From NCBI RefSeq assembly GCF_002280675.1, contig NZ_NCEN01000004.1, positions 248,001-312,000 of the forward strand: 64,000 bases of DNA, in the 5' to 3' direction. A program made the translations under genes and the position numbers. Positions 33,064 through 42,328 of this stretch are shown here, in pieces. The notes beneath the pieces were generated by a model. That model was not told where the DNA came from and searched no databases. It saw nothing but the letters and a program-made list of their open reading frames with translations. This DNA is from Novosphingobium sp. 32-60-15. GTDB lineage: Bacteria; Pseudomonadota; Alphaproteobacteria; Sphingomonadales; Sphingomonadaceae. The first letter of the stretch is position 1. Each line of letters opens with the position of its first letter.

Positions 33064-33693
33064 ATGGTGAGTGACATTCCAATTGTGAAATCACCATTCA
33101 AATCCCAACAAGAGCGGCGCGACGAGCGTGAGGCGAAGCGTATGGCGGTGCTGACTGCGGCGGTGAAGATGTTCAACGCCCGGGGATATCACGCAACGTC
33201 GCTTGATGACGTGGCTGCAAGTTTGGGAGTGTCGAAGCCCACAATCTATCACTACCTTGGCAACAAAGAGCGTGTTCTGGTGGAGTGCCTGACCTTTGGT
33301 ATGGACCAGTTGCTGACCGCCGCCGCTGATGCGCGCGCAGGATTGGGCCGAGGGATTGATCGGCTGCGTGCGTTCTTGATCAGCTATGCCGAAGTCAACA
33401 TGGAAGACTTTGGGCGCTGCAACATCCTGACAGCGAATGAGACGCTGTCCCCCGATGCCCGTGAGACGATCCGGCTACTAAAGCGGCGGATTCATGCAAC
33501 GATGCAAGAACTGGTTGAAGAGGGTATTGCCGACGGATCGATTGCGCCGTGCTATGCCAAGTTCGCCGCACTGACATTGGCAAGCGCGCTGAATGGCCCC
33601 TCGCGGTGGCACAGTCCGGATGGACCGCAATCGCCTCCTGAAATCGCCGTCGCTTTGGTCAATTTCCTGACAGCAGGACTAGCGCCGCGCTGA
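33064..33693 (+). CDS. TetR-family regulator
   Basis: 209 residues. The N-terminal helix-turn-helix spans about residues 30-65 (MFNARGYHATSLDDVAASLG and VSKPTIYHYLGNKERVLVEC). It is divergent from the acyl-CoA dehydrogenase-kinase operon with a dyad between, which suggests it controls that operon, in line with the many TetR regulators that sense acyl-CoAs. Its stop codon abuts that of the convergent cytochrome c gene. Confidence 0.88.
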   Translation: MVSDIPIVKSPFKSQQERRDEREAKRMAVLTAAVKMFNARGYHATSLDDVAASLGVSKPTIYHYLGNKERVLVECLTFGMDQLLTAAADARAGLGRGIDRLRAFLISYAEVNMEDFGRCNILTANETLSPDARETIRLLKRRIHATMQELVEEGIADGSIAPCYAKFAALTLASALNGPSRWHSPDGPQSPPEIAVALVNFLTAGLAPR

Positions 33694-33703
33694 TCAGCGC
33701 GGC
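33684..33703. repeat. 20-bp perfect palindrome across two convergent stop codons
   Basis: GCCGCGCTGA and its reverse complement meet exactly between the stop of the TetR gene (TGA, 33691-33693) and the stop of the cytochrome c gene (33694-33696 on the minus strand). Both proteins thus end in Pro-Arg. As RNA it would be a hairpin in either direction without a T run; it may help end both transcripts. Confidence 0.6.
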
Positions 33704-34215
33704 TTGTAGAAATCGCGGAAGCTGGCAGGAGCGCCGCATTCACGGATCGACGTTTCAACGTGGCGCTTGCGTTCTGCAACAAGCGAAGCGGACGTCAGCG
33801 CATGATGGCGTTCAAAGCCGACTTCCTTCGCGGTGAACGGTTTGGTGCCGGGAAGCACACTCTGTCCGCCGATGCCAAACACCATGAAATTCAACATGTC
33901 GGCCAGTTGCTGATTATCGCTCAACCGGCTTTTGGCAATATTGGGCAAGCGCAACAGATAAGCGCGGGTGGCAGGCGTGCACATCATGTAGCCGACACGC
34001 CCGCGCAGTTCTGGCAATTTGGCTGGGGCGGAAATCCCCTGCACGCCGTGACATCCGGCGCAATGTTCAACGTAGTCCGCTTTGGCAAGGTCTGGATCGG
34101 TGATTGCGGCCAGGCCTTGCGCAATCGTGGTCGAACGTTGGTCATCCTTGGCAGCAAGCGCAGGAGACAGCGCGGCAAGCGCTGCTACTACACCGGCAAG
34201 AGAGGTCCAGCGCAT
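33694..34215 (-). CDS. Periplasmic monohaem cytochrome c of the amine dehydrogenase cluster
   Basis: 173 residues with a signal peptide (1-21, ending ALA-A) and one haem site CAGCH (Cys52, Cys55, His56). It starts 9 bp after the amine dehydrogenase small subunit gene and is the last gene of that operon. In the Alcaligenes faecalis aau cluster a small periplasmic monohaem cytochrome gene (orf-2) follows aauA in the same place. It could take electrons from the TTQ enzyme or help build the cofactor; the sequence does not decide. It has only one haem, so it is not a MauG, which has two. Confidence 0.85.
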   Translation of the reverse strand: MRWTSLAGVVAALAALSPALAAKDDQRSTTIAQGLAAITDPDLAKADYVEHCAGCHGVQGISAPAKLPELRGRVGYMMCTPATRAYLLRLPNIAKSRLSDNQQLADMLNFMVFGIGGQSVLPGTKPFTAKEVGFERHHALTSASLVAERKRHVETSIRECGAPASFRDFYKPR

Positions 34216-34224
34216 GGGGTTGGC

Positions 34225-34767
34225 TTACGCCGCGCCGATCATGATCGCGGTGGAGCAGTGGTATTCCATGCTGCTTGTACCGAAGCACCAGATCACGTTG
34301 TTGTTGAGTTGTGGCAGATAGACTTGCGTTTCACGGTCGGTGTTATCGCACCCGCACTGGCCGCAAGCAGGCTTGCCGCAGCAATCGCGATAGGCAATCA
34401 TGTAGGCCTTGCCGTCTTCCGGATTGATGCAAGACCCGACCCACGATACCGGCGACGGTTCCGAACCTGCCGGGCACGTATGAACGCCGCCACCGCAGCA
34501 CGTGCAAAGCGACCCGTCGATAGCGCAATACCGCCAGTAATCGCACTTGGTATCATCCTTGGTCTGGGCATTGCGCGCGAATGCGGTTTTGGCCTCTGGC
34601 GTACGGTCGGGCTTGGCTGCCTCGGCACGGCTGACGGGCAGGACCGGGAAAATGGGCGCGGCGACAAGGGCGATTCCGAGGCGCGAGATGATGCTCCGCC
34701 GTGAAGTGCGGCCAGCAAAGCGCCGCAGCAGCTTTTCGCCAATCGCGTCGGGATTAAACGTCTTCAT
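34225..34767 (-). CDS. aauA: TTQ amine dehydrogenase small subunit
   Basis: 180 residues with an AGGGGG ribosome site. A long leader carries twin arginines (RTSRRSIIS, then a hydrophobic stretch to about 50), so Tat export is likely. The mature part is cysteine-rich (CDYWRYC, CTCCGGG, DCCGKPACGQCGC), with disulphides typical of the family. Trp109 (in VSWVGSC) and Trp160 (in NVIWCFG) fall at the two positions crosslinked to tryptophan tryptophylquinone, and Asp128 (in YRDCCG) matches the catalytic Asp of aromatic amine dehydrogenase. It oxidises primary amines to aldehydes plus ammonia. Gene order favours the aromatic (aau) over the methylamine (mau) type, but substrate specificity is inferred. 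Confidence 0.93.
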   Translation of the reverse strand: MKTFNPDAIGEKLLRRFAGRTSRRSIISRLGIALVAAPIFPVLPVSRAEAAKPDRTPEAKTAFARNAQTKDDTKCDYWRYCAIDGSLCTCCGGGVHTCPAGSEPSPVSWVGSCINPEDGKAYMIAYRDCCGKPACGQCGCDNTDRETQVYLPQLNNNVIWCFGTSSMEYHCSTAIMIGAA

Positions 34768-34799
34768 GCAATTGCCCCCTATTCACGATTTTCCGGCGC

Positions 34800-35405
34800 T
34801 CATGCTGCCTGAACTTTAAGCTGCGATATGTAGTCCTGGACCGAAGCGATGCCCATTTCATGCGCAATGACAAGGCTTTCGAGATGTTCACGGCTGTTGA
34901 CGAGGCCCTTGGAAAGGATCGTGCCTTCGCTGTCGAGCAGGACAGCATAGGGCAGTTTGCCAACTTCGAACGCCTGGCCAACTTCAGGGCCGTTGATGAA
35001 ACGGTATCTTTCCAGTCCATGCTGGGCGATCATCGCCTGCTGCGCCGAAACTTCGTCATCACCAACGAATGTCAGGTCCAGCCGTTCGTCATGTGCGAAA
35101 GACCGCGCTGCGGGGATCAAGCCCTTGCACAGCGGGCAAGTTGCCGAGACGAACATGAGCAGGCGCAGCGGCATGGACTTTGCTTGCCCTCCAACGATGA
35201 CAGACTTGCCTTCAAGCGTTTGTGCGGGAACCGCTGGCGCTTTGCTGCCAACGGCTGCTGAACCACCGCTGGTCGTGAGCGCGCCTGCAGGAGCGACACG
35301 CATATGCAGCACGCCAACTTGACGAGCGAGCGCGAGCAGCATCAGCACCAGGCCAAGAATGACAAGCCAGGAAATGACCTGGCTGACGATGAGGGCAGTC
35401 ATCAT
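34800..35405 (-). CDS. aauD: MauD-type thioredoxin-like disulphide protein
   Basis: 201 residues from ATG 35405, with AAGGA 7 bases upstream; the ATG overlaps the stop of the mauE-type gene. It has an N-terminal membrane anchor (about residues 5-27) and a periplasmic thioredoxin-like domain with the redox pair CPLC (Cys90, Cys93) in FVSATCPLCKGLIP. MauD is needed to form the many disulphides of the small subunit. It lies between mauE and the small-subunit gene, as in both mau and aau clusters. Confidence 0.9.
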   Translation of the reverse strand: MMTALIVSQVISWLVILGLVLMLLALARQVGVLHMRVAPAGALTTSGGSAAVGSKAPAVPAQTLEGKSVIVGGQAKSMPLRLLMFVSATCPLCKGLIPAARSFAHDERLDLTFVGDDEVSAQQAMIAQHGLERYRFINGPEVGQAFEVGKLPYAVLLDSEGTILSKGLVNSREHLESLVIAHEMGIASVQDYISQLKVQAA

Positions 35406-35953
35406 CGGGAATTCCTTTCCATGGTAGCAAGCGGCCCTGCGGCCAGCGCCGCAAGCACATTGACCAGATGAGTCAAAAGATAGAGCGCGACACCGCCAGC
35501 CAGCGCTATCAACCATTCGGCGGTTGCAAAGGCAGGCGTCGTGACGAGCGTGGGAACGAGCAACATGGCCAAGGCCAGATTGCGGAAAACCAATGTACGG
35601 CTGAGCGGTTGGCGCAGTTCAGACCGGCCGCAACCGCAATCAATGTGGGCGCGGCCCCTCCCGATATTAATCGCCATGGCAGCAGCAAACGCAAGCAGCA
35701 GTGCAATGGCCGGAGCTGCAAACAGGCCAATCCCCACGACCAGAGACACGCCCACAACACATTCGAGCACAGGCAGCGCAAATGCGACGGGTGCGACCAA
35801 AGCTTCGGGCAGCAACCGGTAATTGGCGACGACACCGGGAAAGACGCGGCGGCTGCGCAATTTGGCAAGACCTGCGGTGATGAAAACAAGACCTACGCCC
35901 ATGGCCGCAGCCCCACCGGTAATGGCAATGGCAGATGTGCCAAGCGGGTTCAC
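35402..35953 (-). CDS. aauE: MauE-type membrane protein
   Basis: 183 residues, about four to five hydrophobic segments, DoxX-like/MauE family. It starts at GTG in a GTGA overlap with the large-subunit gene. A CGCGRSE pair of cysteines (DCGCGRSEL) in a loop could exchange electrons with MauD. MauE is required with MauD for folding and export of the small subunit. Confidence 0.88.
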   Translation of the reverse strand: MNPLGTSAIAITGGAAAMGVGLVFITAGLAKLRSRRVFPGVVANYRLLPEALVAPVAFALPVLECVVGVSLVVGIGLFAAPAIALLLAFAAAMAINIGRGRAHIDCGCGRSELRQPLSRTLVFRNLALAMLLVPTLVTTPAFATAEWLIALAGGVALYLLTHLVNVLAALAAGPLATMERNSR

Positions 35954-37116
35954 ATCGGCTCCACGACAGTGATGTGGCCGCCGCCAGCGTTCTCGATTGC
36001 ATGCTTGATCTCGCCAGTCTTGGCATCAAGGATGGTGGCATTGTTCTTGCGATCAGTGATCATGATCAAAGCAGCATCGTCTTGCGTCACTTCAATGTTG
36101 TGCACCGGGCTTTTGATCGGGATGCGCTTCGTGACCTTTTTGGATGTCAAATCAAGCGCCCAGATTTCATCCCCGCCGTGCTTGTGTGTCCAGTATTCAC
36201 CCATGTGCATCAGCACATAAAGCGTGGAGGTAGGGCGATGAAGCGCCATGACTTGCGAGCCGCCGGGGAACCACGCAATATCCAGCGGCTTGGTATCGGC
36301 AGCGCGCAATCCGGCTGCTTGCTGGATTGAAAAGGGTTCACTGACCACCGGCTTGGCGCTGATCGCGGCCGTGCGGACCATGCCGGTATAGCTCAGAAAC
36401 ACCGCCTGCTTCTTTTTACGATCATAAGCGAAGTTGGCAAAAATGGGATCCGCTGCCGCATCAAAGAAGGGTTCTGTGCGGGTAATCTCTTGCGAGGCCC
36501 CTTTGACCGCAATAGTAGCCAACGTGCCATCTGCGCACAGAGACGAGAAACCGACGCCGGGATTGGGGATCAGGTTGGCGCATCCGGGCAGTTCGATGGC
36601 GCGGACAAACTTGCGCTTCACCAAATCGATCACGTTGACTGACGAGGCTGGATCGAAGTTGTAATCGTAAGCGGTTTTGCCATCATCGCTCAACATGAAG
36701 TTGGTTTTCAACCCGCCAATGATGAGCCGCCCCGGTGTCGGAATTTCCGTGAGGAGCTTGAGCGTCTTGGCATCATACACAGCTACGAGATCTTGCCGCG
36801 TGCCGCGATTGCCCTTGGTCCAGATCGTTTCGGCAACGTAATAGACCTTGCCTGCCGGATCGATAGCCATATCGGAATCGCGGCCTGTTGCGATCATACC
36901 GATCATCTTGCCTGTGGCGGAATCAAAGATGCTCGACCCTGCCGAACCCCAACCGCCCTTCACGAAAAACCAGCCAGTTTTGGGTGGTTCAAGCGTGTTG
37001 ACCGTCGCTTCTTCAGCCTCGGCCACGATCGTTTCGGCGAGCGCCGGCATGGCCAGCGAACTTGCGACAACGCCCGTCAAAAGCATACACGCCAACTTGC
37101 TGCGCAACAGCGTCAT
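35950..37116 (-). CDS. aauB: TTQ amine dehydrogenase large subunit
   Basis: 388 residues from ATG 37116, with AAGGGGG 5 bases upstream; the open frame continues upstream without homology. A Sec signal peptide ends at about residue 25 (MPALA-E). The body is the seven-bladed beta-propeller of the amine dehydrogenase heavy chain, with repeated segments such as KVYYVAETIWTKGNRGTRQD, YVLMHMGEYWTHKHGGDEIW and the C-terminal TGEIKHAIENAGGG. Two large and two small subunits form the periplasmic enzyme. It is the first gene of the five-gene operon. Confidence 0.92.
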   Translation of the reverse strand: MTLLRSKLACMLLTGVVASSLAMPALAETIVAEAEEATVNTLEPPKTGWFFVKGGWGSAGSSIFDSATGKMIGMIATGRDSDMAIDPAGKVYYVAETIWTKGNRGTRQDLVAVYDAKTLKLLTEIPTPGRLIIGGLKTNFMLSDDGKTAYDYNFDPASSVNVIDLVKRKFVRAIELPGCANLIPNPGVGFSSLCADGTLATIAVKGASQEITRTEPFFDAAADPIFANFAYDRKKKQAVFLSYTGMVRTAAISAKPVVSEPFSIQQAAGLRAADTKPLDIAWFPGGSQVMALHRPTSTLYVLMHMGEYWTHKHGGDEIWALDLTSKKVTKRIPIKSPVHNIEVTQDDAALIMITDRKNNATILDAKTGEIKHAIENAGGGHITVVEPM

Positions 37117-37175
37117 CATGGCCCCCTTAAATGATGATTGAAGTTTTGACGCATGTCCAGATTCGGTCAAGTTCC

Positions 37176-37225: not shown

Positions 37226-37909
37226 TCAAGGACGGTCAGCAAGGCCTGCAATTTCGCGCGACGTGATGGTTTGGGCCAGTTGAACCAGCGCATGCGCCGC
37301 AATGGCGGTGAACGCCCGCATATGGTGCGACCAAGGCTTCTCATAGCCCAGAAACGGGGTCGCTCCTTCCATCGAGGCGCTGATGTAAATCGCGACAGAG
37401 CGAACTTCGTTGGGAGTGAGCGCCGGGTTCAATTCGGTGACATATTCCGCAATGGTGTTGTGCACGCTGTCATAAAAGAGGCGCACGCGATCAGCAACGA
37501 ATTCATTGTGATTGGCCAGGGCCCACAATTCGGTGAACAAGCGGGTCGTACGTTTGCCGCCGATGTCATCAAGGCAAAGGACAACGATCAGCCGAAGACG
37601 TTCTGCAGCATCAAGGCCGGGCTGGCGCACGGTGCGCGCCAAAACCTTGTCGTAATTGCCGATAATATCATCCAGCAGGGTCTGGATCAGCAGTTCCTTT
37701 TTGGGGAAATGATAGCTGACGTTGCCCACTTTCATGCCGCATTCTGCAGCGATGCGGCGGATGGTAAAGGCCCCTGCCCCTTCGTCGATCAAAACGCGCA
37801 ATGCGGCTTTGATAATGGCATCAACCGTTTCAGCACCACGCACATAGGTTCCCGGACGCGGGGACGAAGGCAGTTCGGTTACACGATGCTCAGGTCGGGC
37901 TGGGGCCAT
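37226..37909 (-). CDS. TetR-family regulator next to the amine dehydrogenase operon
   Basis: 227 residues from ATG 37909. The helix-turn-helix is at about residues 40-75 (GAGAFTIRRIAAECGMKVGN and VSYHFPKKELLIQTLLDD). The C-terminal domain is like that of BetI/PfmR-type TetR proteins. It lies upstream of the aauBEDA operon on the same strand, with the 18-bp palindrome in between, and is preceded by another dyad just before its own start, which suggests autoregulation. Confidence 0.87.
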   Translation of the reverse strand: MAPARPEHRVTELPSSPRPGTYVRGAETVDAIIKAALRVLIDEGAGAFTIRRIAAECGMKVGNVSYHFPKKELLIQTLLDDIIGNYDKVLARTVRQPGLDAAERLRLIVVLCLDDIGGKRTTRLFTELWALANHNEFVADRVRLFYDSVHNTIAEYVTELNPALTPNEVRSVAIYISASMEGATPFLGYEKPWSHHMRAFTAIAAHALVQLAQTITSREIAGLADRP

Positions 37910-37911
37910 AA

Positions 37912-37945
37912 TTGGCGCATAACACCAGAGTTTGGTCTGCGCCAA
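37912..37945. promoter_or_regulatory. Inverted repeat just upstream of the TetR start
   Basis: TTGGCGCA (37912-37919) and TGCGCCAA (37938-37945) are perfect 8-bp arms 18 bp apart. An inner ACCA/TGGT pair adds to the dyad. It begins 2 bp upstream of the TetR start codon, so it overlaps the ribosome-site region: either an operator or an RNA hairpin controlling translation. Confidence 0.45.
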
Positions 37946-38120
37946 CCGCAATGACAATCAATCGACAAGTTGTGACAGTTCCCGCTTGTCTTGTCACCCT
38001 GAACAAGGCGCTTGACCACGGTGGCAACTCTGTTCAATTTTCACGGATAACTGTGGTGATTGGTCGTGTAGTAACGGTTTCCACCCCGGACTTTCTCCGG
38101 GCATTCAAGGACATAAGCCG

Positions 38121-38624
38121 ATGAGCGTTTCCCTCACCGTAAATGGCCGCAAGCGCGTGGTTGAAGCTGAGGCTGACAAGCCATTGCTTTGGGTGCTGCG
38201 CGAGGACCTTGATATGCCGGGAACCAAGTTTGGCTGCGGTGCGGGCTTGTGCGGTGCCTGCACCGTCCACCTTGATGGTGAGGCTGTCCGTTCGTGCCAA
38301 ACGCCGATTGCCGATGCCGCAGGCAAAACAATCACGACGATTGAAGGCATCGCCACCAACGCAATCGGCAAGCGTGTGACAGAAGCGTGGGCAGCGCTGG
38401 ACGTGCCGCAGTGCGGCTATTGCCAGGCGGGCCAGATCATGTCAGCCACCGCGCTGTTGAAGCAAAACCCCAAGCCGTCGGCAGAAGATATAGATGGTTG
38501 GATGAGCGGGAACATCTGCCGTTGCGCGACATATTTGCGCATCCGTGCGGCAATCCGCCAGGCAGCGGGACTGGCTCCGGAGATTGTCGCTGCGGGCAAT
38601 GCCGGCGGGGAGCAAGTCGCATGA
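38121..38624 (+). CDS. iorA: [2Fe-2S] small subunit of a molybdenum hydroxylase (IorA-type)
   Basis: 167 residues. Two [2Fe-2S] sites are visible: the plant-type motif [15 protein letters not shown] with a later Cys in VRSCQTP, and the C-terminal helical cluster CGYCQAGQ ... GNICRC. It passes electrons from the molybdenum centre to an acceptor. There is no FAD subunit gene nearby, as in isoquinoline 1-oxidoreductase IorAB. It overlaps the large-subunit gene by 4 bp. Confidence 0.93.
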
Positions 38625-40783
38625 GCAATGCTGCTGTCTTGAACCGCCGTTCCTTCATGGTCGCCTCGCTGGCGGGTGGAGCCGTGCTGACGCTGGATGC
38701 GACAGTCGTTCTGGCGGCACCTGCAAAAGGTGCGCCCGCCGATGTTTTGAACGCGTTCGTACGGATCAATGCCGATAATAGCGTAACCATCGGCGCAAAG
38801 AACCCCGAGATTGGCCAAGGCGTGAAAGTCATGCTGCCGATGCTGATCGCAGAAGAGCTCGACCTGGCGTGGGAGCAGGTGAAAATCGAGCAGACCGATG
38901 CGGACGAGACGAAATACGGCATTCAAACCGCTGGCGGCAGCACGGCGACGCCGCGCAATTGGCTGCCGATGCGCCAAGTGGGCGCAGCAGCCCGTGCGAT
39001 GCTGATCGCAGCGGCGGCGCAACAATGGGGCGTTGAGACAGCAACACTCACCACCGCGCGCGGTGCGGTACTGCACAAAGCCACCGGCAAAAGCCTGACG
39101 TATGCCTCTCTGGCAAAAGCAGCGTCGACGCAAACTCCGCCCGACCTTGCCAAAGTTTCGCTGAAGGATCCTTCGGCCTTTTCGATTATCGGCAAGTCGA
39201 AGCCGGGCGTTGATGTGCCCAAGATCATCAAGGGTGAGCCGTTGTTCGGCATCGACACGCGCTTGCCCGGCCTTGTCCATGCTGCGGTGGTGAAGTGCCC
39301 GGCACACGGCGGCACTGTGGCATCGATCGATGATGCTGCGGTAAAGGCTATTCCGGGTGTCGTCGCGGTGGTGGCGGTTAACAGCGGCTTTGTTCCGGCG
39401 GGCCAAAACGATACCGTGTTGATCGTGGCGGACAGCTGGTGGAAAGCCAGCAAGGCGCGGGAAAAATTGGTTGTGGTGTGGGATGATGCCGCAGTATCCG
39501 GCTTTTCCACTGCGGGATACGAAAAGGCCGCCGCTGGACTAGTGGCCAATCCGCCACAAGTAAGCCTGTTCAAGGCGGGCGATGCGGATGCTGCGCTGAT
39601 ATCGGCAGCGAAAGTAGTAAAGGCCGATTACGAATATCCATTCCTTGCCCACGCCACGCTGGAACCGCAAAATTGCACAGCGCTGTTCAAGGACGGTAAG
39701 CTGGAAATGTGGGCGCCGAGCCAGTCTCCTGCCAACGGCAGGACCGAAACTGCCAAGCTTTGCGGCATCGCGCCTGAAGATCTGACGATCCATCTGACAC
39801 GGATCGGTGGTGGCTTTGGGCGACGTTTGTTGAACGATTACATGGCGATTGCCGGACAAGTGGCCAAAGCCGTACCCGGCAAACCCGTGAAGGTCATTTA
39901 TGACCGGACCGATGATTTTCGGCACGATTTCTACCGCCCCGCAGGATGGCACCGGTTTAGTGCAGGGCTGGATGCCAGCGGCACGATTGTGGCGCTGAAG
40001 GATCACTTCGTCACGTTCGGTAAGGACGGAAAAGGCCTGCGCGCAGCCGATATGGCAGCCACCGAATTCCCCGGCCCGATTGTGCCCAATGTCGATTACG
40101 GCGTAAGTTACATGGCAACCAACCTTGGCACCGGCTGGTTGCGCGCGCCGACATCCAACGCAATGGCATTCGTGTTCCAAAGCTTTCTTGATGAAGTGGC
40201 AGAAGCGGCGGGGCTGGATTTGCCGGAATTGATGCGGCGGACACTGGGCCAATCGCGTGAAATTCCAGGTGGGCGCGTACCGTTTCATACAGGCCGTGCG
40301 CGCGGAGTGATTGACGCAGTCTGTAAATCTGCCGGTTGGAAAGGCCGCGAAAAAGGCCGCGGATTTGGCTTCTATTTCTGCCACCTTGGCTACTTTGCCG
40401 AGGTTGTTGACGTGACGATCAGCGATGGCGTTGTGAAAGTCGATAAAGTCTGGGTGGCGGGCGACGTTGGATCGCAAGTGATCAATCCGATCAACGCGAT
40501 GCATCAAGTGCAAGGCGCAGTGATCGAAGGTCTGGGTCAGGCCATGCTGGGCCAAAAGATCGTGCAGGAAAACGGCGTCGTTACTGCCGAAAACTTTGGT
40601 GACTTTGCGCTGATGCGGATGGAGGGTGTACCGCGCGAAATCGCGGTGGAATTCATCAAGACCGATTTTCCACCAACAGGCCTTGGCGAACCTGCCCTGC
40701 CCCCGGTCATTCCCGCGCTGGCCGGTGCGATTTATTCCGTCACCGGAAAACGTCATCGCCGATTGCCATTGGAGCTGATATAG
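38621..40783 (+). CDS. iorB: Molybdopterin-binding large subunit (IorB-type hydroxylase)
   Basis: 720 residues from ATG 38621 in an ATGA overlap; a longer frame to 38387 lies over iorA and is rejected. The N-terminus [13 protein letters not shown] is a Tat-type leader, so the complex should be exported. It belongs to the xanthine oxidase family, IorB subgroup: molybdopterin segments IGGGFGRRL and [12 protein letters not shown], and the catalytic glutamate in GLGEPALPP near the C-terminus. It hydroxylates N-heteroaromatics or oxidises aldehydes; the true substrate is unknown. Confidence 0.92.
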
Positions 40784-40793
40784 CCCCGCCACA

Positions 40794-41771
40794 ATGATCG
40801 CTAACACGCCTACTGACATTCTGCAGTTCATCGTCGAATGTGACGCTGAAAATATTGAAACGGTCTTGGTTACGCTGGTCGGGATAGAAGGCGGATCTTC
40901 CCGGGCCATTGGTGCGCAAATGGCTGTGGCCGCCGATGGGCGCCGTGTCGGATCTTTTTCGGGCGGCTGTGTCGAAGATGCGGTTGTAACCGAAGCACTG
41001 GAGACCTTAAGCGAAGGCTGGGGCCGGGTTGTGCGATATGGCTTGGGATCGCCCTATATCGATGTGCGTTTGCCTTGCGGCGGCGGCATCGATCTGCTGT
41101 TTACGCCGCGACCTGATGCCAGCGCAATCCGGACTGCCTTGGACAAGCTTGGCCAGCGCGAGGCCGTAGGTTTGGCCTTGGAATGTGATAGCATATTGCT
41201 CTTGCCAGCACCCACACCGCGCGCATGGGACGGGCAAAGCCTGCATCAGTCATATCAACCCGCTTTGCGGATTTTCGCGCTAGGCCAAGGTGAAGACCTT
41301 GCCGCTTTTGCGCGGCTGGGTGCATATTTTGGTGCAGAGGTTCATGCACTGACACCCGATCAAAACACCGTAAATTTGCTGAAAAGCGAAGGGATTCATG
41401 CCACGCTGCTGGCTACACGGAATGCTTTGCCAATAGCGCAAAGCGATGCCTGGACAGCAATCGTATTCCTGTTCCATGGGCGCGATTGGGAAGAAATTCT
41501 GTTGCAGCAGGCCCTCGCCCTGCCGTCATTCTATGTCGGTGCGATTGGCAGCCGCCGCACGCATGCGGCGCGGCTTGCGATGCTGGAAGAGTGCGGCGTC
41601 TCGCCAGAAAGGATTGCCAGTGTTCGTGGCCATATCGGGTTGATCCCGGCCACGCGTGATCCTGCAACCCTTGCACTATCCATCTTGGGCGAGATTGTGG
41701 CCGATTTTAACACGCTGGCGCAATGGTCACACTGGATGGGGCAGGCGTTGGCTGCGCCATCGACTGCATGA
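40794..41771 (+). CDS. XdhC/CoxI-family molybdenum cofactor maturation protein
   Basis: 325 residues. The N-terminal XdhC domain contains GIEGGSSRAIGAQMAVAADG and SGGCVEDAVV. The C-terminal Rossmann-like domain contains FYVGAIGSRRTHAARLAML and GHIGLIPATRDPATLALSI. XdhC proteins bind the molybdenum cofactor and help add its terminal sulphur before insertion into hydroxylases. It lies 10 bp after iorB, so it serves that enzyme. Its stop overlaps the mocA start. Confidence 0.93.
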   Translation: MIANTPTDILQFIVECDAENIETVLVTLVGIEGGSSRAIGAQMAVAADGRRVGSFSGGCVEDAVVTEALETLSEGWGRVVRYGLGSPYIDVRLPCGGGIDLLFTPRPDASAIRTALDKLGQREAVGLALECDSILLLPAPTPRAWDGQSLHQSYQPALRIFALGQGEDLAAFARLGAYFGAEVHALTPDQNTVNLLKSEGIHATLLATRNALPIAQSDAWTAIVFLFHGRDWEEILLQQALALPSFYVGAIGSRRTHAARLAMLEECGVSPERIASVRGHIGLIPATRDPATLALSILGEIVADFNTLAQWSHWMGQALAAPSTA

Positions 41772-42328
41772 CCGCGCTGGTCATGCTTGCTGCGGGGCGT
41801 GGGACACGGTTCGGCGGCGGGAAATTGAATGCACCATTGGCTGGAAAACCACTCGCACAGCACGTTGCCGATCGCCTTGGTAGTCTGCCATTCAGCCGGT
41901 TGATTGCCGTTTGTGCAGATGCGACGCCCGAACTTCCCGGTTTCGAACGGGTGATGCTAGCCCCCGCCGATGGGCCGCTTTCGCGATCAATTGCCGCAGG
42001 GATTGCAGCGCTTCGGGACGATACGTCAGTTCTGATTGCATTGGCCGACATGCCACTGGTCCCATCAGCACATTTTCAAGCACTTTTGGCTGCATTTGAT
42101 GGCGATGTTGTGGCGTCGGGTGTCGGTGCATTGGCGATGGTGCCTGCCGTGTTTGGAGCGCGTCATTTTGCAGCCTTGCAGCAACTGACTGGTGACCAGG
42201 GTGCAGGTGCATTGTTGCGTGTTGCGCCAAGGATTGTGCTTGATCCGGCGCTGGCGCTTGATGTTGATACACCAGACGATCTGCTGCGTGCCGCGCGCGT
42301 TATTTTGGCGTCGGACCCGATCACATAA
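41768..42328 (+). CDS. mocA: MocA-type molybdenum cofactor cytidylyltransferase
   Basis: 186 residues from ATG 41768 (ATGA overlap). The nucleotidyltransferase signature is LAAGRGTRFGGGKLNAPLAGKP, with the Asp-containing ALADMPLVP and the late DVDTPDDL. MocA attaches CMP to molybdopterin to give the dinucleotide form used by xanthine-oxidase-family hydroxylases. This completes the iorAB-xdhC-mocA set: structural subunits plus dedicated cofactor enzymes. Confidence 0.9.
   Translation: MTALVMLAAGRGTRFGGGKLNAPLAGKPLAQHVADRLGSLPFSRLIAVCADATPELPGFERVMLAPADGPLSRSIAAGIAALRDDTSVLIALADMPLVPSAHFQALLAAFDGDVVASGVGALAMVPAVFGARHFAALQQLTGDQGAGALLRVAPRIVLDPALALDVDTPDDLLRAARVILASDPIT

Follow-up and report, generated by a model that had tools for sequence, protein, structure and literature searches.

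A conserved monohaem cytochrome c as a candidate for tryptophan tryptophylquinone maturation in amine dehydrogenase operons without a detectable MauG

The literature explains the biogenesis of the amine dehydrogenase cofactor tryptophan tryptophylquinone (TTQ) by the two-haem, bis-Fe(IV) chemistry of MauG. The aau cluster of Alcaligenes faecalis (aauBEDA-orf2), the source of aromatic amine dehydrogenase (AADH), presumably runs in the order B-E-D-A-monohaem cytochrome and is without mauFGLMN; a paper of 2001 reportedly described no analogues of these genes in the cluster and a small monohaem cytochrome, orf-2. A study of 2005 is said to have obtained active AADH in Paracoccus denitrificans from aauBEDA plus orf-2, a result that does not settle whether MauG is needed because this host has a MauG of its own. 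A cluster in the aau order that lacks the mau maturation genes is not in itself new. Here we describe a comparable operon on the minus strand (37119-33694) of a 64,000-nucleotide stretch of Novosphingobium sp. 32-60-15 (contig NZ_NCEN01000004.1; the whole stretch is called the window below), and propose that its terminal cytochrome, X, may complete TTQ.

The operon consists of five overlapping or closely spaced genes, all in the places where a first-pass annotation had put them in what it took to be a sphingomonad. The large, beta-propeller subunit B (aauB/mauB-like; 35950..37119, 389 aa) has a Sec-type signal peptide and matches PF06433 (1.1e-43); we place its start at the ATG at 37119, the second ATG, at 37116, being the start taken earlier. 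Its best relatives of solved structure are the heavy chains of A. faecalis AADH (1.3e-35) and methylamine dehydrogenase (MADH; 3.9e-34), and its score of 151.6 bits lies below the cut-off of 454.45 for the MADH equivalog TIGR02658. The MauE-like membrane protein E, a disulfide/export accessory (35402..35953; PF07291, 3.4e-22), begins with a GTG and overlaps the 3' end of B, and is followed by D, a MauD-like accessory protein of thioredoxin fold (34800..35405; 201 aa from the ATG at 35405; TIGR02661, 1.5e-49, 168 bits against a cut-off of 188.6). The small subunit A (aauA/mauA-like; 34225..34767, 180 aa) carries a twin-arginine leader and matches PF02975 (2.5e-52); its score is also below the MADH equivalog cut-off (TIGR02659; 190.9 bits against 196.85). 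The last gene encodes X (33694..34215, 173 aa with its signal peptide), a cytochrome c with a single CxGCH motif and no conserved distal haem ligand. The locus contains no mauF, mauG, mauJ, mauM or mauN, and X, as had been noted, carries a single haem site. With a light chain that has both TTQ tryptophans and the catalytic aspartate, a heavy-chain partner, and MauE and MauD homologues, the operon is, as judged from its sequence, that of a TTQ-dependent amine dehydrogenase.

In A, the TTQ residues W109 and W160 and the catalytic D128 stand exactly at these positions and align with the structurally solved light chains of AADH and MADH; all three are invariant across 173 light chains. The cysteines are less constant: C90 occurs in 146 of the 173 and so does C138, while C91 and likewise C135 occur in 161 (window numbering), a pattern that suggests that two light-chain disulfides are lost as pairs in some members, such as the light chain of locus L063. 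Since the three cofactor residues are invariant while two disulfide pairs are dispensable, TTQ appears to be under full constraint in lineages without MauG, where it is very probably made; we infer that it also forms in the window protein.

The first-pass annotation had left two sources of TTQ, a MauG encoded elsewhere or another route, and had proposed a genome-wide search for MauG-like proteins. We searched for the MauG family with the PF03150 profile, which recognises the MauG proteins of P. denitrificans, Methylobacterium and Indioceanicola as well as an Escherichia coli family member, and with P. denitrificans MauG as the query. Neither found a match in the host genome (3.76 Mb, 99.97% complete, 61 contigs), so that a MauG elsewhere is rejected and another route is left. 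A survey at the level of the order yielded 56 light-chain loci in 44 genomes, and PF03150 had no match in 29 of these genomes, nor in nine further TTQ genomes from a survey of the class and phylum and five further named genomes. The same 43 genomes, which include the single-contig assemblies G043, G076, G454, G582 and G782 and a few that are less than 90% complete, were also negative with the P. denitrificans query, which was positive in three control genomes. Elsewhere, at L244 (genome G1199), mauFBEDA stands with mauJ and an amicyanin gene in a mau cluster for which no MauG was found within 13.5 kb, the stretch to which that search was confined. As most of the sampled TTQ operons are not of the mau type, and many lie in genomes where no MauG relative was found, an unrecognised maturation route should exist.

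In all 56 loci of the order the light-chain gene is followed by one for a CxxCH monohaem cytochrome, an arrangement far beyond chance, and homologues of B and D are present in nearly all. The cytochromes are of two kinds, X and a paralogue, Y. When hidden Markov models of both were run over all loci, X was found in 56 of 56 loci of the order and 22 of 24 of the class and phylum, whereas Y is encoded in about half of loci, X being the sole operon cytochrome in about half, and Y alone never stands in for X. Some loci are duplicated between our collections; the clean count is 80 TTQ loci in 64 survey genomes, with X in the locus in 78, in trans in one (L206, a B-A pair; a complete operon elsewhere in that genome, L207, includes X) and one mau-type cluster with MauF, MauJ and MauG (L209). 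Among named genomes and plasmids, X is missing from a locus on a truncated contig (L135), from the P. denitrificans mau cluster (L099) and from L156, L165, L184 and L185; whole-genome search found X in all four genomes of the latter group, in a second, fuller TTQ operon in G1077, G1089 and G1090 and fully unlinked in G1088. One of these, Komagataeibacter europaeus (G1089; L227, L185), has three TTQ loci, a B-A pair, B-A-X and B-E-D-A-Y-X, and in G1088 (K189A clade) the unlinked X gene (L229:10152-10592, minus strand) adjoins a histone deacetylase/acetylpolyamine amidohydrolase-like gene. A Sphaerotilus plasmid carries an unannotated light-chain sequence (L106:7878-8695) with one Cys missing and no heavy chain annotated beside it, which is probably a decayed copy.

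Presence of X also separates genomes and enzyme types. All 33 tested genomes with aau-type TTQ operons contain full-length X (profile search, E <= 1e-34). None of the 47 TTQ-negative genomes does, although many are of the same genus; the profile gave at most partial matches there, of up to 46 bits. The 12 mau-type clusters all have MauF and MauJ, 11 have MauG, and none has X; amicyanin is encoded in most mau clusters without X. In the reverse test, a search for MauF in the order of genome G586 led to seven mau genomes, six of which have no full-length X; in the seventh, G1331, X sits in a separate B-E-D-A-X operon. Six mau-only genomes are thus without full-length X, and in G1331 and G1057 an X operon stands alongside a mau cluster: X goes with the aau-type enzyme and not with the organism. 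Within the locus neighbourhoods only B, E, D, A and X are conserved in all loci, which makes X a maturase candidate; no flavoprotein or other enzyme that might make TTQ is conserved there.

We aligned 156 X proteins (numbering from window:33697-34152). The CxGCH motif, P47, R63, P70, N88, E110, R115 and R128 are invariant or nearly so, whereas the 156 share no conserved Met or Lys, nor any His besides that of the motif. Cys58 and Cys139 covary perfectly, both present in 80 members and both absent in 76, and probably form a disulfide. By sequence profile and by structure, using a confident AlphaFold model built without haem (predicted local distance difference test score, pLDDT, 92), the nearest relative of X is Thermus thermophilus cytochrome c552 (profile match 4e-25; structural Z 10.7 over 112 residues with 30% identity). 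E110, R115 and R128 are also present in c552, which means that they do not set X apart. The profile match falls into two blocks, c552 residues 11-51 and 73-130, and skips residues 52-72 and with them the axial ligand Met69 (PMC10635480). Y keeps this Met, in a YxGVMPxQ-type loop that X does not have: between a conserved R-x-Y-L and the helix that follows lie 11-12 residues in most X proteins and 28-32 in Y. By these matches, X is a Thermus c552 fold from which a loop of ~18 residues bearing Met69 has been deleted. Engineered c552 without Met69 has a five-coordinate haem, and ligand exchange has turned it into an artificial peroxidase (PMC10635480); the haem of X is likewise expected to be five-coordinate or water-ligated. 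The idea that X is a fragment of MauG can be dismissed, since X has one CxxCH and no PF03150 match, and resembles c552 both in sequence and in fold; no MauG was among the matches listed by VIA-align and Foldseek, which by itself proves nothing. Neither Pfam nor NCBIfam has a model specific for X.

Our proposal is that TTQ is completed not by MauG but by X, acting as a peroxidase-like cytochrome with an open haem; to this we give a probability of about one half. The operon would encode a periplasmic amine dehydrogenase, by analogy of the A2B2 type, that oxidises a primary amine to the aldehyde. E and D would handle disulfide formation and export of the Cys-rich small subunit, exported by the twin-arginine pathway, as is thought for MauE and MauD, and the crosslinked, oxygenated W109-W160 pair would then be completed by X. 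With the distal Met loop gone, the haem iron could react with H2O2 or O2, and the oxidised haem might withdraw electrons over a distance from the precursor tryptophans, a task for which MauG employs two haems. X is favoured for this role because it is kept without Y, in split operons, and beside a true MauG that serves another enzyme, and because the feature that fits c552 for electron transfer is gone from it. Tentatively, and with somewhat less confidence, X may be the monohaem TTQ synthase for most amine dehydrogenases of the family, a c552 made into a peroxidase through loss of its Met loop, the MauG route being derived and confined to the MADH clade.

The main alternative, that X is a dedicated electron acceptor, the counterpart of amicyanin in mau clusters, with TTQ made by another route, we consider less likely, even though cytochrome c genes next to dehydrogenases usually encode acceptors, about half of loci have no operon cytochrome besides X, and the mau clusters without X mostly carry amicyanin. 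X also co-diversifies with A (r 0.79) and B (r 0.82), although such mirror-tree correlations do not separate an acceptor from a maturase. The Met loop typical of an electron-transferring c552 is deleted in X and kept in Y, however, and where both are encoded Y is the better acceptor candidate; in addition, Y never replaces X, and G1088 retains X unlinked. The acceptor of A. faecalis AADH is reportedly azurin, with which the enzyme is said to have been crystallised (PDB 2h47, 2iaa), so that an operon cytochrome would not be needed as acceptor there.

Less probable still is an autocatalytic origin of TTQ, or its formation by a general periplasmic oxidant or by some unlinked enzyme of a different class, such as a flavoprotein as for cysteine tryptophylquinone (CTQ), with another function for X. 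The comparison that singled out B, E, D, A and X covered locus neighbourhoods rather than whole genomes, which leaves room for such an enzyme; against it stand the conservation of those five genes, and no others, in all loci and the requirement for MauG to finish TTQ in P. denitrificans, as given in literature cited in PMC7876137 and PMC6405878. A divergent MauG-like dihaem protein acting in trans, missed by both searches, seems very improbable: the host assembly is a draft in 61 contigs and very divergent homologues could escape, but PF03150 does find the E. coli family member and the tested mau MauG proteins, and the closed or near-closed single-contig TTQ genomes are negative as well.

Several points nevertheless weigh against X as the maturase. 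The accepted mechanism of MauG needs two haems, through the bis-Fe(IV) state, and X has one. The missing distal ligand is predicted from sequence and a haem-free AlphaFold model, part of the co-occurrence of X with TTQ is explained by operon linkage, and as the sole operon cytochrome in about half of loci X could be an electron acceptor. The contrast between X and MauG, moreover, follows essentially one split in the family tree and, being close to a single evolutionary event, lends weak statistical support to functional replacement.

A tree of light chains unites the MauG-type sequences in a single clade (100/100) and places A. faecalis AauA with aau-like loci of Burkholderia, Pseudomonas and Paracoccus. 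An unrooted tree of A and B together, from 99 loci, is divided by a 100/100 split into one half that holds the window, loci from Acetobacteraceae and the clade of MauG-type sequences (the MADH half) and another with AADH-like loci of Burkholderia and Pseudomonas (the AADH half). With the MauG-type dehydrogenases confined to a single clade amid X-type ones, MauG looks exceptional; X looks like the older state and MauG like its replacement, unless the root of the tree lies in the MauG branch. The AADH half also contains a second TTQ operon of the host genome (G000:C10, L003:9179-19055), in which TetR, B, E, D and A are followed by two cytochrome genes, first Y and next X; 3' of the cytochromes are genes for a TonB receptor, an aldehyde dehydrogenase-like and an acyl-CoA ligase-like protein. 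The first-pass annotation overlooked this operon, as it did the fact that the terminal cytochrome belongs to a conserved family, lacking a distal ligand, that accompanies MauG-less TTQ operons.

A TetR/BetI-type regulator directly upstream of B (37226..37957, minus strand; PF00440 2.7e-11, PF13977 3.1e-11) is the probable regulator of the operon, and a TetR gene of the same cluster occurs in 39 of the 56 TTQ loci. A second TetR-type gene, convergent with the operon, abuts the end of X (33064..33693, plus strand; PF17932 6e-25, PF00440 3e-16). Divergent from it, on the plus strand, is a block that recurs in part at several related loci. It encodes the [2Fe-2S] subunit of a molybdenum hydroxylase (38121..38624; PF01799 1.7e-27), the molybdopterin-binding subunit of the same enzyme (38621..40783; PF02738 2.4e-35, PF20256 3.2e-31), with a weak, sub-threshold match to a twin-arginine signal, an XdhC-like molybdenum cofactor insertion protein (40794..41771; PF13478 2.6e-22) and a MobA-like nucleotidyltransferase (41723..42328; PF12804 4.6e-28), the last two near the TTQ operon in nine and eight of the 56 loci, respectively. 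Downstream are acyl-CoA dehydrogenase and APH-family genes. Because the XdhC gene recurs in this way, molybdenum-dependent oxidation of the aldehyde product is suggested, and the hydroxylase is a plausible partner of the amine dehydrogenase.

As far as the literature searched shows, three points are new: whole genomes with TTQ operons are without MauG, X is both universal and specific, and its ligand loop is deleted. We found no publication that names X or a MauG-free route to TTQ, in a search that did not cover the key aau papers. With one small cytochrome picked out as the candidate, an old gap, the source of TTQ in the aau enzymes, narrows to the test of a single gene. Should X be the catalyst, one c-type haem would be enough for the remote oxidation of tryptophan.

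The match to the Alcaligenes aau cluster drawn in the first-pass annotation holds for gene order and for the terminal monohaem cytochrome, and the TTQ residues and their numbering agree as well. The match does not extend to the subunit tree: the subunits of the window lie on the opposite side of the A and B split from the AADH-like loci, on the half they share with MADH, and it is the second operon of the host that falls with AADH. With the mau clusters of Paracoccus and Methylobacterium the window has homologues of B, E, D and A in common, but it is without MauF, J, G, M, N and amicyanin, scores below the MADH equivalog cut-offs, and has X. MauG, the dihaem TTQ synthase of the CCP_MauG superfamily, shares with X the role proposed here and a c-type haem expected to be five-coordinate, whereas X has one haem, about 150 residues and a fold related to c552. 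From c552 itself, with which it shares the fold and a C-terminal PFTAEEV..LR extension, X differs by the lost Met69 loop, an extra N-terminal helix and, in about half of members, the added Cys pair. Genes for quinohemoprotein amine dehydrogenase (QHNDH), the CTQ enzyme, lie close to the TTQ operon at L061:10908-15694, where Pfam confirms alpha and gamma subunits together with a radical S-adenosylmethionine (SAM) protein, and also at L050, L053 and L063. The QHNDH system, with QhpD and QhpG, is likewise a MauG-independent tryptophylquinone route (PMC7876137), although its subunits are unrelated to those of the window and its CTQ is made in the cytoplasm by a radical SAM enzyme and a flavoprotein.

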